A stretch of 56,381 nt of DNA from Alphaproteobacteria bacterium. GTDB taxonomy: Bacteria; Pseudomonadota; Alphaproteobacteria; CAAGCB01; CAG-977. The DNA is taken from contig JAFZYY010000031.1 of the NCBI GenBank assembly GCA_017616015.1, positions 1 through 56,381 of the forward strand, read 5' to 3'. Shown one piece after another: positions 16,364-24,736 of this stretch (positions are counted from its first letter, which is position 1; every line of letters starts with the position of its first letter). A program made the position numbers and the translations under genes. The notes beneath the pieces were generated by a model. It saw nothing but the letters and a program-made list of their open reading frames with translations. It searched no databases and was not told the origin of the DNA.

Positions 16364-19131
16364 GAACGACCCTGGCGGGCTTGAAGCAATTGTTTTAAAT
16401 TTTTCCGATTCAGCTTCCGCGGCGCCGATTTCGAACCGTTCGAGTATTTTTTGACGCTCGGATCTTTCAGAAAGTCAGCCGCTTTCTGACGTTCTTTTTT
16501 TTCCGTAATACCCAAAGACTTGGAAACGATTTCATAAGTATTCGGCGACAAATTCGGCGTTTCAAGAATGCGCGTCAAAGCTTTTTTCATCATTTCCTGA
16601 CGTTCGGGATCGAATTTCTTCCAGTTGCCGATGGCGACCGGAATGGTTGCGGCAACCTGCGGATTGATTTTATCAACGGCAATCGTTTGTTCCGCAATAA
16701 AATCATATCCGGATCCGTCCTTTTTATGCAAAGCCGTCGGGTTGGCGGCAAAAGCGTTAATCAACGCGCGGACTTTGTTCGGATTTGTCATTGAAAACGC
16801 TTCGTGATTCATCAGTTCTTTGACGGTCTTTAATGAATCCGGCGAAGCTAAAGCCTGCATGGACAACCATTTGTCGACAACCAGAGAATCTTTCTTGTAC
16901 GTCTGATAGAAATCGTCCATAACCGCTTTGGCTTCGGGTGTGTCTTTACCGGCGAAAACGCGGACGGCGGCGTCTTTGTCCGTCATCTGTTCGGCTTCGC
17001 GATACTGCTTCAGGGCTAAAGAGTCGTCCAAGATGCTCAAATATCCCAAAGCCATATTTTTAACGGCGCGTTTTCCGGAATCTTCGGCGTTCGGAACATA
17101 TTCGCCTTTAACCTGATTGTTGTTATATGTTCTGAGCAAATCGTCCTTTAATTCCGTAGCAATATGCGTGCGCAAAGCCAAACGAGCCTGAGCGATTGCG
17201 TCAACGTCAACGATGTCCATGCGTTCCGCTATCGCGCGTTCGGAAGGCAGAATAAAGGCTTTCGCAATAAACGCCTTATCCAGATTTTCATCGTTCAGGT
17301 ATCCCTTTAACGCCTGCGTGAAAGCGGGCGGAATAGTGACTTCTTTACCGGCCTGAATATCTTTGACCATGTTCAGCATGATGTCAGTCGCGAATTGCTG
17401 TCCGGCGTCCCAACGGTTAAACAGGTCGGAGTCTTTTGCCATTAACAAGCCGCGCTGTTCCGGCGTATAGTCCATTCTGAAATGAATCGGCGCCGTAAAA
17501 GCACGGTTACCGGACAAAACGGGCGGTTCCGTTACGTTTTCAAACACAAACGTTTGTTCTGGCTTGTTCATCACAATGACTTTGGAGGTTTTTCCGTCTT
17601 TTTCCTGTCCTTCGATTTCCAACGGCATATCGTTTCCGTCTTTATCCAACAGGCCGACTTCCAAAGGAATGACAAACGGTTTTTTAATCGGCTGTCCCGG
17701 AGTGGCCGGCGTATGCTGACTTAAAGTCAGCGTATATGTTTTCTTTTCCTCGTCATAGACGCCTTTGGCTTCGACGACGGGAGTACCTGCCTGATGATAC
17801 CAGGTATTGGCAAATTGCTTTAAGTCAATGCCGGCGCCTTCGGAAATCGCGGCGACGAAATCGTCGCAAGTAACGGCTTTTCCGTCGTTGCGTTCAAAGT
17901 ATAAATCCATACCTTTGCGGAATTTTTCTTTGCCCGCTATGCGTTCCATCATACGAATGACTTCGGCGCCTTTGTTGTAAACGGTGCCGGTATATAAAGA
18001 ACGCACGGAAATATAAGAATCCGGACGAATGGGGTGAGCCAGAGGACCGGCGTCCTGCGTAAACTGTCCGGCGCGCAGAGAAGCAACGTCTTCGATTCTC
18101 TTGACCGCGCGGGAACGCATATCGGAAGAAAACTCCTGATCGCGGTAAACGGTCAGACCTTCTTTTAATGTCAGGTCGAACCAATCGCGCAAGGTGACGC
18201 GGTTACCCGACCAGTTATGGAAGTATTCGTGTCCGACAACGCCTTCAATGCTGGCGTAATCGGCGTCGGTCGCCCGGTTCGGATCGGCCAGAACGTATTT
18301 GTCGTTAAAAATATTCAAAGACGTGTTTTCGCACGCGCCCGAATTGAAGTTAGACACCGCCACAATATTAAAGACATCGTGATCGTATTCGCGGCCGAAC
18401 GTTTCTTCGTCCCATTTCATCGCTTTCTTTAAAGATTCGACAGCGTAGCCGCTCATTTCGCCTTTGCCTTCCTCGACAAAGACGTTCAGCGTAACGTCGC
18501 GGCCGGAGCGGGTTATAAAATGATCTTGTTGCTGATCAAGCTTGCCGGCGACAACGGCGTACAAATAGCACGCTTTGGGAATGGGATCGAAAAAGACCTC
18601 TTTCTTGCGGCCGTCGGGCAATTCTTCCACGGATTCCTTGTTGCCGTTTGAAATCAGTTTGGGCAGTTTTTCCTTGTCCCCAATCAAAGTCGTGCGCCAG
18701 GTCGGCATTACGTCCGGACGGTCGGGGAAGAAGGTGATTCTGCGGAAACCGTGCGTTTCGCATTTGGTGCACAGAATGCCGTCGGATTCGTACAGTCCCT
18801 GCAGTTTAGTGTTGGCTTTGGGGTTGATGTCCGTTTCGATCGTCAGGGTGAAATCCTTCGGCGGATTAAGCAACATCATGCCTTCGTCGGACAGAATGTA
18901 GTCTTCCGGTTTTAAAGGTTCACCGTTAATGGCTATGCTTTTCAGCGTTAATTCGTCGCCGTCCAGCCACATCGGCGCGTTTTCCGCCGTGTCGGGTTCA
19001 CGGTGCACCTGCATTTCCGCAACGGCTTTTGTGTGTTCGGAATCCAAATCAAAGGTCATATCGACATGACTGATTTGATAGGCGGGTTTCTTGTAATCCT
19101 TGGCATAAACGGTTTTTGGTGTGGAAGACAT
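16360..19131 (-). CDS. pepN: Aminopeptidase N (M1 family), 923 aa
   Basis: This zinc aminopeptidase releases N-terminal residues from peptides in the cytosol. The zinc site HEYFH is at residues 301-305 with the third ligand Glu324 (LKEGLTVYRDQEF). The substrate-amine motif, normally GAMEN, reads GACEN at 265-269. Domains follow the E. coli PepN order: beta N-domain, thermolysin-like domain, small beta domain and a long helical C-domain. The last 40 residues are Lys/Arg-rich (KSAPRKLNRKNLKQLL). No signal peptide is present. The start ATG at 19131 fits family starts. The gene opposite begins at 19295, leaving a 163-bp divergent gap. Confidence 0.96.
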   Translation of the reverse strand: MSSTPKTVYAKDYKKPAYQISHVDMTFDLDSEHTKAVAEMQVHREPDTAENAPMWLDGDELTLKSIAINGEPLKPEDYILSDEGMMLLNPPKDFTLTIETDINPKANTKLQGLYESDGILCTKCETHGFRRITFFPDRPDVMPTWRTTLIGDKEKLPKLISNGNKESVEELPDGRKKEVFFDPIPKACYLYAVVAGKLDQQQDHFITRSGRDVTLNVFVEEGKGEMSGYAVESLKKAMKWDEETFGREYDHDVFNIVAVSNFNSGACENTSLNIFNDKYVLADPNRATDADYASIEGVVGHEYFHNWSGNRVTLRDWFDLTLKEGLTVYRDQEFSSDMRSRAVKRIEDVASLRAGQFTQDAGPLAHPIRPDSYISVRSLYTGTVYNKGAEVIRMMERIAGKEKFRKGMDLYFERNDGKAVTCDDFVAAISEGAGIDLKQFANTWYHQAGTPVVEAKGVYDEEKKTYTLTLSQHTPATPGQPIKKPFVIPLEVGLLDKDGNDMPLEIEGQEKDGKTSKVIVMNKPEQTFVFENVTEPPVLSGNRAFTAPIHFRMDYTPEQRGLLMAKDSDLFNRWDAGQQFATDIMLNMVKDIQAGKEVTIPPAFTQALKGYLNDENLDKAFIAKAFILPSERAIAERMDIVDVDAIAQARLALRTHIATELKDDLLRTYNNNQVKGEYVPNAEDSGKRAVKNMALGYLSILDDSLALKQYREAEQMTDKDAAVRVFAGKDTPEAKAVMDDFYQTYKKDSLVVDKWLSMQALASPDSLKTVKELMNHEAFSMTNPNKVRALINAFAANPTALHKKDGSGYDFIAEQTIAVDKINPQVAATIPVAIGNWKKFDPERQEMMKKALTRILETPNLSPNTYEIVSKSLGITEKKERQKAADFLKDPSVKKYSNGSKSAPRKLNRKNLKQLLQARQGRS

Positions 19132-19294
19132 TTGTATTTTCCCCTTAAAGCTTCAAAATTTTGTCCATTTTACTCAAAAACGGTTCTCTTTCCAAGAAAA
19201 TTCTGAACAAGCTCTCAAGAAAAAAGCAGAGAGGCGATCCCGTCTTGTCTTTTCAGAAAATCCGGATAAAATGAAACAAACTGCGGAGAGAAAA

Positions 19295-20884
19295 ATGAGT
19301 GATACTCCAAAAGGTTTAAAACTGTCCGACATAAGAAACTATTTTTCAGCTTTATCTTATAAAGAGCGCTGTGCCGTCGTTGCAAGAGCGTCTATGGTTT
19401 TATTCTGTTGGCTGATAATGTTCGTTATGTCTAAAAAGCTGAGCATAAACGAATATCAGTTGTTTCTCAGTGTTGTCTCGCTTTTCGGAATGGGACTCTT
19501 TTTTAATTCCGTTCTTTTTCTGATTTTTTATTGGGCGATTTTTTTGCCGTTAACGTTGGATTTGCATTTATTTCTGGCTTACGGTTTATCTTTGCACAGT
19601 TTCGGGGAACAGCTGTTTGCGATTCTCGGCGACACGAATAAAATAGAAATAATCGAATATTTGCCGAAGGTAACATTTTTCGAATGGATTTCCGTAATAA
19701 GTATGTTTTCGGCGTCAGTTTGTGTTCTTTTATTCAAGCCGCAACCGATAAAAATTCCGAAAGAATGGAAGAGAACAATCTTTTTTATTCTTTTTGCCGT
19801 ATATCCGCTGACGTATATAGCCCATATTTACCCCATTATTCAGTCAAAATTTTCAGCTGAAGAAAACGAGCTGATTTCTAAGGCTTTGGCGTTTCATTTT
19901 AATCCGGCAAAGCAGAGCAAAGCGGACATCGTTGTTGTTTTAATCGGGGAATCGCACAGGCAGGAAGAATTTGACCCGGCTTTTGATAAATACGCGCCTG
20001 AATTTCAAAATCTGTACCGTTTTTCGGATATGATTTCTCCGTTTGCGGGCACGCTGAATGCTGTTCCGATTATTCTGTCGCGCAAAAAAGGAGATGACAC
20101 ACACGATTTCTTTTATGAAAAGTCTCTTTTTTCTTTGTTTGAAGAAGCCGGATATTCAACGTATTTCGTACAGTATACGGGGCTCTCTTCAGAATTAAAC
20201 AAGCTAAGCTTTATTTACAGGGAAGCCGGCCATTTTGTAAAATACGAAAATAAAAAAATAAAAGCCGCGACTGACGAAGGGATTTATTCCGTTCTTGAAG
20301 ACATTCTGAATAACGGCGAAAGAAAAAAACTGATCGTTATAAAGATGATCGGCGCACATATCGATTTCAAGTACCGCTATCCGGCTCCGAAGCCTTCTTT
20401 GTTTCAACGGCTGGCGTCTGTGGTCGAGACCAAAACAAAAGAACGGGAAATGTATCATTATAACAAGGCAATTTCTTATTCTGCGGGCGTTATCGCAAAT
20501 ATTATGAAAAAAATAGAAAAGCGTCCCGAACCCGCGATGCTGTTTTTTTCTTCGGATCACGGAATTTGCATATTTGATGTCAATTCTTTTCATTTGCCGC
20601 CGGATTGCCGAAACGCTTTCCATATTCCCGCCATGATTTTATTAAATCCGGCATTGAGCGCAATAACATCACAAAAAACTAAGGATAATCTGGACTGCAA
20701 CCAGGATAAGCCGCTGACGGAAGAATACGATTTTGAAACGATTGCCGCGTTAGCCGGCATTTCTTACCCGACGGCCGACAAACAATATGAACTGACGGGA
20801 CAATGCGATCCTCTGCACGGAAAGAAAAGACTTGTTTCCACCGGTTCCATAAAAGAAAAAAGAACGTTTTACGAGGATTTATAA
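19295..20884 (+). CDS. EptA-like phosphoethanolamine transferase/sulfatase-fold membrane enzyme, copy 1 (529 aa)
   Basis: The protein is built like lipid A or core phosphoethanolamine transferases: about five membrane helices in the first 180 residues, then an alkaline-phosphatase-type catalytic domain. The nucleophile motif reads IGESHR (Ser220; EptA has Thr in GET). Later come a His-bearing KMIGAHIDFKYRYP, then a conserved YNKAISYSAGVI, and the metal motif SSDHG. An in-frame upstream ATG exists at 19121, but 19295 is chosen: it has GGAGAG at the right distance, avoids overlapping pepN, and gives exactly the 529 residues of the paralogue at 22046. The acceptor (lipid A, core sugar or other glycan) is unknown. 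Confidence 0.82.
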   Translation: MSDTPKGLKLSDIRNYFSALSYKERCAVVARASMVLFCWLIMFVMSKKLSINEYQLFLSVVSLFGMGLFFNSVLFLIFYWAIFLPLTLDLHLFLAYGLSLHSFGEQLFAILGDTNKIEIIEYLPKVTFFEWISVISMFSASVCVLLFKPQPIKIPKEWKRTIFFILFAVYPLTYIAHIYPIIQSKFSAEENELISKALAFHFNPAKQSKADIVVVLIGESHRQEEFDPAFDKYAPEFQNLYRFSDMISPFAGTLNAVPIILSRKKGDDTHDFFYEKSLFSLFEEAGYSTYFVQYTGLSSELNKLSFIYREAGHFVKYENKKIKAATDEGIYSVLEDILNNGERKKLIVIKMIGAHIDFKYRYPAPKPSLFQRLASVVETKTKEREMYHYNKAISYSAGVIANIMKKIEKRPEPAMLFFSSDHGICIFDVNSFHLPPDCRNAFHIPAMILLNPALSAITSQKTKDNLDCNQDKPLTEEYDFETIAALAGISYPTADKQYELTGQCDPLHGKKRLVSTGSIKEKRTFYEDL

Positions 20885-22045: not shown

Positions 22046-23635
22046 ATGTCTGACGAGTTTAGACCGATAAAGCTGTCCGAAATAAAAGCATTCTTTTCGG
22101 GATTGTCTCTGAAAGAAAAAATCGCCGTTTCGGCACGGGCGATTATGGTTTTTATTGCGTTGTTCGCTTTAATCGTTATGTTCGTTAAAGCCGAAGGAAA
22201 CGCGCGGAATGAAACGGAACTGCTTATCGGCTGTTTTACTCTTTTAGGCTCGGCTTTCTTTTTCAGGCCGTTATTTTTTCTGCTTCTGTATTTCCCTGTT
22301 TTTTTTATACTTATGCTGAATGTCCATTTGAGGCGGACTTACGGATTATTTTTGTCAGATGTTGCAAATCAGGTTTTTGCGGTCATAGGGGACACCAATA
22401 AAACAGAAGTGTTTGAATATCTTGCCGGAGCAAGTTTTTTCGAGTTAATCGCATTGCTTCTGACGGCACCGCTTTCCGTCTGCACTTTGTTTTATACCCC
22501 GAAATTTAAAGAAATTCCTGTAAAATGGATAAGAATATTCTGTTTTATTATTGTGCTTTCCTATCCGTTCGGCAATTTGTCTCAGCTGGCGCCGGTAGTT
22601 AAAACGAAGTTTTCTCCGGAACAAAAGGAAATTTTAGAAAAAGCCGCCGCTTTTAAATTCAATCCGGAAAAAAGCGGGAACAAAGCGGATACCGTCGTTA
22701 TTTTAATCGGAGAATCACATCGACAAGCAGAATTTAATCCGGCTTTTGATAAATATGTCTCCGGATTTCAGAATCTTTACCGTTTTTCCGATATGACGTC
22801 GTTGTTTGCGGGGACTTTGAACGGTGTTCCGACTATTCTGTCGCGGAAAAAGGCAACCGATCGTTTTAATTTTTTCTATGAAAAGTCCGTCTTTTCCTTG
22901 TTTAAAGAAGCCGGATACGAAACCTATTTCGTTCATTACACAAATACGGCTTTCGAACAAAACCAATTAAGCGTGATTTATAAAGAAGCGGATCATTTTA
23001 TAAAGTATGCAAAAAAAATTACGCCCGTGACAGATGAAAGTATTCTTCCCGTATTGGAAAACCTTTTAGCCAATCGGAAAAAGAAAAAACTGATTGTTAT
23101 TAAAATGATAGGCATTCATATAAATTTCAGCGAACGCTATCCCGATCCCGGTTTTTCTTCGTTTCGGCGTTTTTGGACGTCTCTTAAACCCAAAACGAAA
23201 GAACGGGAAATGTACCATTACAACAAGGCAATTTCTTATTCCGCGGGTGTTATCGCCGATATTATGCAAAAGATAGAACAGCGCCCGGAACCGTCTTTGC
23301 TGTTATTTTCTTCCGATCACGGTATTTGCATTTTTGACAAAGGGACTTTTCATATTCCGGCAACCTGCCAAAACGCCTTTCATATTCCTGCCATGCTTTT
23401 ATTGAATCCCGCATTGACGGCGGCGACTTCGGACGATGCTAAGAAAAATCTGGCCTGCAATCAGGACAAGCCGCTGACGGCAGAGTATTATTTCGAAACG
23501 ATAGCTTCTTTAGCGGGGATTTCTTATTCTTCGGCTGATAAACGGTATGATTTGACACGGAAATGCGATCCGTTGCATGAAAAGAAAAGACCGGTTTATA
23601 CGGCGGGAAAGGATTATTTTTACGAAGATTTATAA
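22046..23635 (+). CDS. EptA-like phosphoethanolamine transferase/sulfatase-fold membrane enzyme, copy 2 (529 aa)
   Basis: This is a full-length paralogue of the gene at 19295. Both have the same length, helix pattern and motifs: IGESHR (Ser224), KMIGIHINFSERYP, EREMYHYNKAISYSAGVI, SSDHGICIFD, and the closing block CNQDKPLT...CDPLH. The catalytic halves are much more alike than the membrane halves, so the catalytic part is under stronger constraint. The TGAGGA ribosome site lies 9 bases before the ATG, and a TATACT lies about 35 bp upstream. A strong terminator follows (23648-23684). The family transfers phosphoethanolamine from phosphatidylethanolamine to surface glycolipids; the target of this copy is not known. 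Confidence 0.82.
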   Translation: MSDEFRPIKLSEIKAFFSGLSLKEKIAVSARAIMVFIALFALIVMFVKAEGNARNETELLIGCFTLLGSAFFFRPLFFLLLYFPVFFILMLNVHLRRTYGLFLSDVANQVFAVIGDTNKTEVFEYLAGASFFELIALLLTAPLSVCTLFYTPKFKEIPVKWIRIFCFIIVLSYPFGNLSQLAPVVKTKFSPEQKEILEKAAAFKFNPEKSGNKADTVVILIGESHRQAEFNPAFDKYVSGFQNLYRFSDMTSLFAGTLNGVPTILSRKKATDRFNFFYEKSVFSLFKEAGYETYFVHYTNTAFEQNQLSVIYKEADHFIKYAKKITPVTDESILPVLENLLANRKKKKLIVIKMIGIHINFSERYPDPGFSSFRRFWTSLKPKTKEREMYHYNKAISYSAGVIADIMQKIEQRPEPSLLLFSSDHGICIFDKGTFHIPATCQNAFHIPAMLLLNPALTAATSDDAKKNLACNQDKPLTAEYYFETIASLAGISYSSADKRYDLTRKCDPLHEKKRPVYTAGKDYFYEDL

Positions 23636-23647
23636 TAATTTCAGGCA

Positions 23648-23684
23648 TAAAAAAAAAGCCCCCGAAAACGGGGGATTTTTTTTA
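23648..23684. terminator. Bidirectional terminator between transferase copy 2 and the 25-aa peptide gene
   Basis: A CCCCC/GGGGG stem (23659-23663 with 23670-23674) is flanked by an A run on the left and a T run on the right. It can therefore end transcription from both sides: the transferase on plus and the peptide gene on minus, which stops only 11 bp away. Confidence 0.88.
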
Positions 23685-23694
23685 TCAGATGAAA

Positions 23695-23772
23695 TTACAT
23701 ACGAATGTAGGGGATAAATTCGCCTTCAAACGTAACGTAGGGCAGGAATTCACCTTCAAATTCAACAGTCAT
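23695..23772 (-). CDS. 25-residue tandem-repeat micropeptide
   Basis: On the minus strand a perfect GGAGG lies 7 bases before an ATG that opens a 25-codon frame. The peptide contains two near-identical units, FEGEFLPYV and FEGEFIPYI, and ends RM. The two 30-nt DNA copies differ mostly by synonymous or conservative changes: GGT/GGC, TTC/TTT, Leu/Ile, Val/Ile. That indicates selection on protein sequence. The stop is 11 bp from a strong terminator. There is no signal peptide, cysteine or hydrophobic segment. Each unit has Glu-x3-Tyr, the spacing used in PqqA-type crosslinked peptides, but no maturation enzyme is seen nearby. Function unknown; it could be a peptide substrate, signal or regulatory leader. 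Confidence 0.6.
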   Translation of the reverse strand: MTVEFEGEFLPYVTFEGEFIPYIRM

Positions 23773-23806
23773 AACAACCTCCACAAAAATTGTTAAATCA
23801 CCTTTT

Positions 23807-23839
23807 ACGCTTGTTTTTATCAAAAATCAAGCGTTTTTT
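23807..23839 (+). terminator. Stem-loop with T run upstream of the micropeptide gene
   Basis: ACGCTTG (23807-23813) plus a T run pairs with an A run plus CAAGCGT (23828-23834), leaving one bulge, then six T residues follow on the plus strand. It could be a back-up terminator for plus-strand read-through. On the minus strand the same hairpin sits in the leader of the 25-aa peptide. Confidence 0.4.
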
Positions 23840-23951
23840 GCGGTTGCCATTCATTTTTTTTACCTATATGCTTTTTATCAGCTGTTTTGAGGTCAGAACA
23901 GTCAGAACCAAACGGTTCGGGAGCCTGAACAACTCTTGCGAAAAACAGCAT

Positions 23952-23960
23952 TGATATAAT
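23952..23960 (+). promoter_or_regulatory. Extended -10 promoter for the structured leader
   Basis: TGATATAAT is an extended -10 (TG-n-TATAAT, hexamer 23955-23960). A good -35 is not apparent, which fits extended -10 promoters. The predicted start is near 23967, directly ahead of a run of hairpins. Confidence 0.55.
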
Positions 23961-23966
23961 GCTGTG

Positions 23967-24139
23967 ATTATCCTTTCGTTTCATTGAAACGAGGGACTTA
24001 TATCCCCGATTTTATCAAGAGGTCGGGGAGCTTTGACTATGTCCAGAGGCTTTGCGGCTTTAAAGGTCAAGGGATCATTTTTTTCGCATGATTGTTCAAT
24101 CCCCGACCGCCTTAGTTTTTAAGGCGGTTTTCCTTTTTT
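23967..24139 (+). ncRNA. Structured leader or small RNA with competing stems (riboswitch-like)
   Basis: Visible stems: 23977-23982/23986-23991; CCCCGA 24004-24009 with TCGGGG 24023-24028; an 8-bp alternative GGTCGGGG 24021-24028 with CCCCGACC 24101-24108; and inner CTTTGAC 24031-24037 with GTCAAGG 24066-24072. A TCAT/ATGA hairpin branches off the 3' side. The element ends in a terminator at 24106-24139, which shares bases 24106-24108 with the long-range stem. Folding therefore looks mutually exclusive, as in attenuators. It lies directly upstream of the lipoprotein gene at 24161. It matches no RNA family I know. A free-standing sRNA is the alternative. Confidence 0.5.
24106..24139 (+). terminator. 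Terminator hairpin just before the lipoprotein ribosome site
   Basis: ACCGCCTTA (24106-24114) pairs perfectly with TAAGGCGGT (24120-24128), followed by a T-rich tract to 24139. It ends 5 bases before GGAG of the next gene, a position typical of attenuators. Confidence 0.8.
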
Positions 24140-24160
24140 GAAATGGAGATTGAACGAATT

Positions 24161-24736
24161 ATGAAAAAACTTTTCTTATGCGGCGCGCTTTGCCTGTTAA
24201 GCGCATGTTCCTCGATAATCAACGGAACATCGCAGGAAATATCATTTAAGGGAAACGTCAATGGCATAAAAATCAAGCAAAACGGGACGGTTTTATGTTC
24301 CGTTCCGTGTACGGTTTTGATTGACCGGACAAAGAACGGAACCGTTCTGACGGCTGAAAAAGAAGGATATAAGACCGAAGAATTTTCCCTAAGAACGAAG
24401 CTGTCCTCTCTATTTTGGTTAAATGTTACCAGTTTGGATCCGTTTGCTTCGACAACGGACGCGACCGTCGGCGGTATGTGGGTTTATTCTCCGTCGGAAT
24501 ATTACGTTGATTTGATCGAAATCGGCGGAACAGCCGATACAAAAGTACAGGAAGTCAAAAAGTTTGTTTTGAAAAACTATGCCGCTTTGAAAGCGGAAGC
24601 CGCCAAAGGCAAATCGGGCGAATATTTGGATTCTTTGGAAAAACTGACCGGTATCGGCGCACAAAATCTGAAAGAAGATATTTCAAAATGTTCCGATGCG
24701 GCAACTTGCGCCAATATGATTGCAGATAAGATTTAG
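24161..24736 (+). CDS. PEGA-like lipoprotein, 191 aa
   Basis: The start at 24161 is preferred over the in-frame ATG at 24143, because it yields a clean lipoprotein signal (MKKLFLCGALCLLSAC, lipobox LSAC) and places GGAGA 12 bases upstream. The mature part starts SSIINGTSQEISF and continues with CSVPCTVLI and TAEKEGYKTEEFSL. This resembles small lipoproteins with a PEGA-type beta domain, usually 'SG..Q.V....P.GA.V...G....TP..V.L.R....V...K.GY'. A membrane-proximal WLNVTSLDPFAS..GGMW stretch fits the same group. A helical C-terminal extension of about 65 residues with two cysteines (KCSDAATC) is less usual. The function of these lipoproteins is unknown. Its 3' end overlaps recG by 4 bp. Confidence 0.8.
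   Translation: MKKLFLCGALCLLSACSSIINGTSQEISFKGNVNGIKIKQNGTVLCSVPCTVLIDRTKNGTVLTAEKEGYKTEEFSLRTKLSSLFWLNVTSLDPFASTTDATVGGMWVYSPSEYYVDLIEIGGTADTKVQEVKKFVLKNYAALKAEAAKGKSGEYLDSLEKLTGIGAQNLKEDISKCSDAATCANMIADKI

Follow-up and report, generated by a model that had tools for sequence, protein, structure and literature searches.

A repeat micropeptide of up to 25 residues with codon-level evidence of selection in a small group of uncultured alphaproteobacteria

The window, the whole stretch of 56,381 nucleotides analyzed here, comes from the genome of an uncultured bacterium (2.09 Mb, 34 contigs). Its minus strand carries a micropeptide gene of 25 codons plus stop, which lies between a sulfatase-fold protein gene and a structured RNA that precedes a lipoprotein gene, the latter three on the plus strand. 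The features are as follows.

23695–23772, minus strand: micropeptide gene, ATG to stop, MTVEFEGEFLPYVTFEGEFIPYIRM; kept in 7 species, with third-position changes predominating
23734–23763, minus strand: repeat unit 1, EFEGEFLPYV; replaced in the 23-aa homologue and missing from the 15-aa homologue
23704–23733, minus strand: repeat unit 2, TFEGEFIPYI; together with the next codon it yields EFIPYIR, which is unchanged in all seven homologues
23778–23782, minus strand: ribosome binding site GGAGG; GGAG kept in 7/7 homologues
23803–23831, minus strand: promoter-like box CTTGATT-N16-GTAAAA; CTTG and GTA at constant spacing in 7/7
23649–23674, minus strand: intrinsic terminator, CCCCCGTTTTCGGGGG followed by a T run; equivalent hairpin and T run 3' of the stop in 7/7
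about 23900–24130, plus strand: structured RNA, with the covarying leader element at 23994–24130 and a covariance model of its core (24023–24106)
24143–24736, plus strand: lipoprotein gene, with weak similarity only to known families
19121–20884 and 22046–23635, plus strand: two sulfatase-fold protein genes, flanking a DipM/NlpD-like gene on both sides

The coordinates, strand and length of the frame in the first-pass annotation were exact, and the ideal GGAGG site that it had described is present, five bases 5' of the ATG. The terminator that it had called dedicated to the frame was found on the minus strand 3' of the stop, at 23674–23659, with a stem of 6 bp, all GC, before the T run, though it is bidirectional and may therefore also serve the convergent gene at 22046–23635 in the source genome. 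Across the homologues the promoter-like box reads CTTG-N19-GTA about 60 bases 5' of the ATG, the GTA part being GTAAAA in six of them and GTACAT in one. The box of the source genome has one exact copy there, compared with two for the reversed control, and was rejected as the mark of a regulon. The next downstream gene is convergent in 6/7 loci, and hence the micropeptide gene is most likely an independent transcription unit and not a leader. Promoter-like box, ribosome site and terminator are thus all retained within the unit itself.

A search of related genomes for short frames with the motif, as the first-pass annotation had proposed, returned homologues in seven of the 12 species of the order, which as sampled comprises one family and three genera. 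Five homologues have 25 aa, one from another genus has 23 aa (MNVFFDDSVRVTFEDEFIPYIRM), and one has 15 aa and a single unit (MTIDFAGEFIPYIRM). The length differences, 30 nt and 6 nt, are both in frame. ATG, ribosome site, stop, terminator and promoter-like box are kept in all seven, with zero broken frames; loss of the frame or its ribosome site in relatives, the outcome that was to have counted against the peptide, was seen in no relative carrying the gene. The micropeptide had no match in the other five species. In one of these (G004) recG and the DipM-like orthologue were likewise not found, so that the region is probably absent from the assembly, and in two (G009 and G010) recG adjoins the peptidase gene, the gap being small or nil. 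In G008 the region is present and the micropeptide was not found. In G011 the assembly splits the two flanking genes between contigs, and neither of them had a frame of this kind next to it.

Beyond the order, 385 genomes of the class yielded no credible homologue, nor did viral contigs or a genome-wide pattern scan. The best-scoring matches in the 385 genomes (E 0.02–0.3) lay inside other proteins or had no start or SD; they were attributed to chance and rejected on inspection, as was a match to a Pelagibacter record from the pattern scan, which has no in-frame start codon. Mimicry of another protein in the genome was also rejected, E(F/Y)xP(Y/F)x occurring elsewhere only in unrelated frames. 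Public records with the same motif belong to metagenome-assembled Alphaproteobacteria or Rhodospirillales. The title of one mentions sheep rumen, and judging by such titles the group probably inhabits rumen or gut.

Between species, the changes in the gene have the pattern of a protein-coding sequence. Among the five full-length homologues, the variable columns at the three codon positions number 4/3/14 of 25 each (Fisher p = 0.0003). For the last eight codons, compared over seven species, the minimum numbers of changes are 1/0/7 (p = 0.003), and dN was lower than dS in 10/10 species pairs. This concentration of changes at third codon positions shows, at the level of codon comparison, that the frame is selected as protein in a small group of uncultured alphaproteobacteria, as the first-pass annotation had claimed from the repeat alone. 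The two 30-nt units differ at 8/30 bases. Their codon differences were indeed synonymous (GGT/GGC and TTC/TTT) or conservative (Leu/Ile and Val/Ile), with the addition of one Glu/Thr change that the annotation had omitted. The proposed comparison of the two copies gave dN 0.22 and dS 1.06, which is the expected direction; it is based on only 10 codons, and the between-species comparison is therefore the stronger evidence.

The family went unmatched in NCBIfam, PHROGs and PDB sequences and, apart from one chance match below threshold, in Pfam. This agrees with the earlier remark that no described family resembled it, and the papers examined do not mention such a peptide. It is a new family among orphan small proteins. 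The GMSC metagenome small-protein catalogue predicts frames from 30 nt (PMC11364881), so members may already sit there as unnamed clusters. Like the lineage-restricted small proteins in GMSC and sORFdb (PMC11796252), the micropeptide is unannotated, shorter than 50 codons and without a known domain. In contrast to such entries, seven species, a promoter-like box, a terminator, a repeat architecture and codon-level selection together define this family. Standard annotation usually omits genes this short, and for few of them has sequence comparison shown selection on the protein. The confinement to one small uncultured order makes the family useful for asking how such genes come into being and disappear.

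The residues of the peptide alternate in character. Apart from Met1, the odd positions are V, F, G, F, P, V, F, G, F, P, I and M, and the even positions are mostly polar or charged. This register is kept in the 23-aa and 15-aa homologues (permutation p 0.006–0.06 per sequence, for sequences that are not independent). The two-residue turns among homologues are EG, ED, AG or DD, and together with the alternating hydrophobic residues they suggest one beta-hairpin per unit. An AlphaFold2 model of the 42-residue open frame placed a strand-turn-strand at MTVEF-EG-EFLPYVT (block pLDDT ~83) and a second hairpin at low confidence. The model was made from a single sequence (overall pLDDT 67, pTM 0.30) and includes 17 upstream codons that are probably untranslated, so this result is only suggestive. 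The 15-residue homologue may be unstructured when alone. Net charge ranges from -1 to -5 among the homologues, which have between three and six aromatic residues and, by inspection, no membrane segment. Resemblances to the FtsZ C-terminal tail and to the outer-membrane beta-signal were considered and set aside; in each case the spacing would differ by one.

The best explanation of these features, which we regard as plausible if slightly short of probable, would be a soluble acidic micropeptide that docks a cytoplasmic partner by a short beta or linear motif, with the second unit as an optional duplication. Transcribed independently, the one-gene unit would yield a micropeptide 15 to 25 residues long, which would be soluble, acidic and aromatic. 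Each unit would form a beta-hairpin from a strand, a two-residue turn (EG, ED, AG or DD) and a strand such as EFIPYIR, with the odd-position residues on one hydrophobic face. This hairpin or linear motif would dock on a putative partner protein in the cytoplasm, and the micropeptide might be a small regulator of that protein or an accessory subunit to it. The contact would be made by the invariant C-terminal unit EFIPYIR, whereas the first unit would be a duplication adding a strand or avidity, dispensable in that one species has a single unit. A bolder and rather unlikely version is that of a free-standing 15-residue beta-hairpin gene, with a unit number that varies by species, which would be among the smallest selected protein modules and would by itself dock on some conserved cellular machine. 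With a unit that can be counted, at one or two predicted hairpins per peptide, and an invariant seven-residue core, the family is simple enough for synthesis and pull-down tests, and the predicted tryptic peptide is MTVEFEGEFLPYVTFEGEFIPYIR.

Several other readings share part of this evidence. If the peptide had no regulatory role and were instead built constitutively into a larger complex as a structural subunit, it would be natural both for EFIPYIR to be invariant and for the promoter-like box to occur just once in the genome, outside any regulon. However, several members of the same family yielded no homologue, so the micropeptide is not part of a core complex, and we consider this reading doubtful. 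Less likely still is a dual-function small RNA, in which the ~150-nt transcript would base-pair and the peptide would be a second product. The predicted stand-alone transcript with a Rho-independent end, a fold z of -3.2 (partly owing to the terminator and the UTR hairpin) and the AACAA..TTGTT arms that flank the SD in three species are consistent with such an RNA, but the UTR hairpin is not conserved in the other species, and conservation is strongest in the coding frame and coding-like in shape. The very short frame, its own intergenic unit and its patchy presence also recall type I toxin-antitoxin pairs, in which the peptide would be the toxin. Yet this peptide is acidic, with alternating polar residues and no membrane segment, and its gene is single copy, which makes a toxin very unlikely. 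An Rfam search, which covers described RNA families, recognized no antisense RNA gene.

The remaining two readings were judged even less probable. The first-pass annotation had speculated on a link to PqqA, in which a radical-SAM maturase would join Glu and Tyr within each EFxPY of a RiPP or cofactor precursor. PqqA is itself near 25 residues long, close to the length of the micropeptide, with Glu and Tyr three residues apart, and E-x3-Y is kept in all seven homologues. However, searches for two enzyme types, the SPASM radical-SAM maturases by which the PqqA pathway is defined and the YcaO cyclodehydratases, were positive in control genomes but detected neither in the 12 genomes of the order. 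Neither a maturase, protease or transporter gene nor pqq genes were seen beside the micropeptide gene. Furthermore, its motif is duplicated or, in the 15-aa homologue, cut to a length with no room for a leader, and has no Pfam or NCBIfam sequence match. The link is therefore unsupported and a precursor highly improbable. Least probable of all is an attenuator leader of the pheL/trpL type, controlling transcription of a downstream operon. Such leaders likewise consist of a short aromatic-rich frame and an intrinsic terminator, and 6/25 residues of the micropeptide are aromatic. With the next gene convergent in all but one locus, however, there is nothing to attenuate; moreover, the aromatic codons are unclustered, no antiterminator was seen in the fold, and the non-aromatic residues are conserved equally, so that conservation extends over the whole amino-acid sequence and not the aromatic codons alone.

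Gene neighborhood did not point to a partner for the proposed docking peptide. The micropeptide gene remains in the vicinity of recG and of an M23/LysM peptidase gene (DipM/NlpD-like), but its immediate neighbors vary by species and include a CptA/EptA-like sulfatase-fold gene, lipoproteins, deoD-like, rpsI with an LPS-sugar cluster, recG and adhesin-like genes. These names were mostly assigned by reading the sequences and some, including that of the DipM/NlpD-like gene, by family search. No gene was found adjacent to or co-conserved with the micropeptide as a partner. The sulfatase-fold protein at 22046–23635 resembles phosphoethanolamine transferases (CptA/EptA), below cut-offs, and G007 has just one sulfatase-fold gene within the stretch examined. 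In a close relative (G006), rpsI abuts the micropeptide gene, and an LPS-sugar gene cluster lies between it and recG (locus L013, 7.8–15 kb).

The structured RNA consists of a P1 helix (TCGGGGAG/CTCCCCGA), an internal loop (GTATGTTCA/AAAG), two hairpins, a terminator and an SD. It had no Rfam 15 match at the gathering level and chance-level matches only below it. The covariance model of the core gave 25 matches in the loci examined, a few of which are the same place twice. Copies lie at loci L103–L122 and L125–L131; the RNA is multi-copy in the order and present in 9/142 genomes of the class, seven of those nine in other families, so that it extends to at least seven further alphaproteobacterial families. 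Two-sided changes were observed at 13/25 pairs, compared with 5.2 in shuffles (0/500), in an alignment that had been fitted to the structure. The arm GGUCGGGGAG has two potential pairing partners, an upstream CCCCGA arm and a downstream one adjoining the terminator, and we infer from this alternative pairing that the RNA is riboswitch- or antiterminator-like. G008 and G011 have the RNA without the micropeptide, and G003, G006, G001 and G002 have the micropeptide gene without an adjoining RNA copy. These species distributions differ, and a link between the RNA and the micropeptide was thus rejected.

Behind an RNA copy there is typically a terminator-like hairpin with an SD; the gene that follows often encodes a lipoprotein, is adhesin-like, or belongs to the DNA methyltransferase or restriction-modification class. 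At L104, L108, L110 and L115 they lie directly 5' of methyltransferase/restriction-modification genes of unrelated types (type IIG, C5, EcoRI-type, type III). Further copies come before genes for PEGA-type lipoproteins and before adhesin-like and prepilin-like genes, as though the RNA labelled accessory genes. A homologue of the lipoprotein at 24143–24736, located behind the same RNA in another genus, has a PEGA domain, and G008 has two lipoproteins of this type, each behind an RNA copy (L103 and L118).
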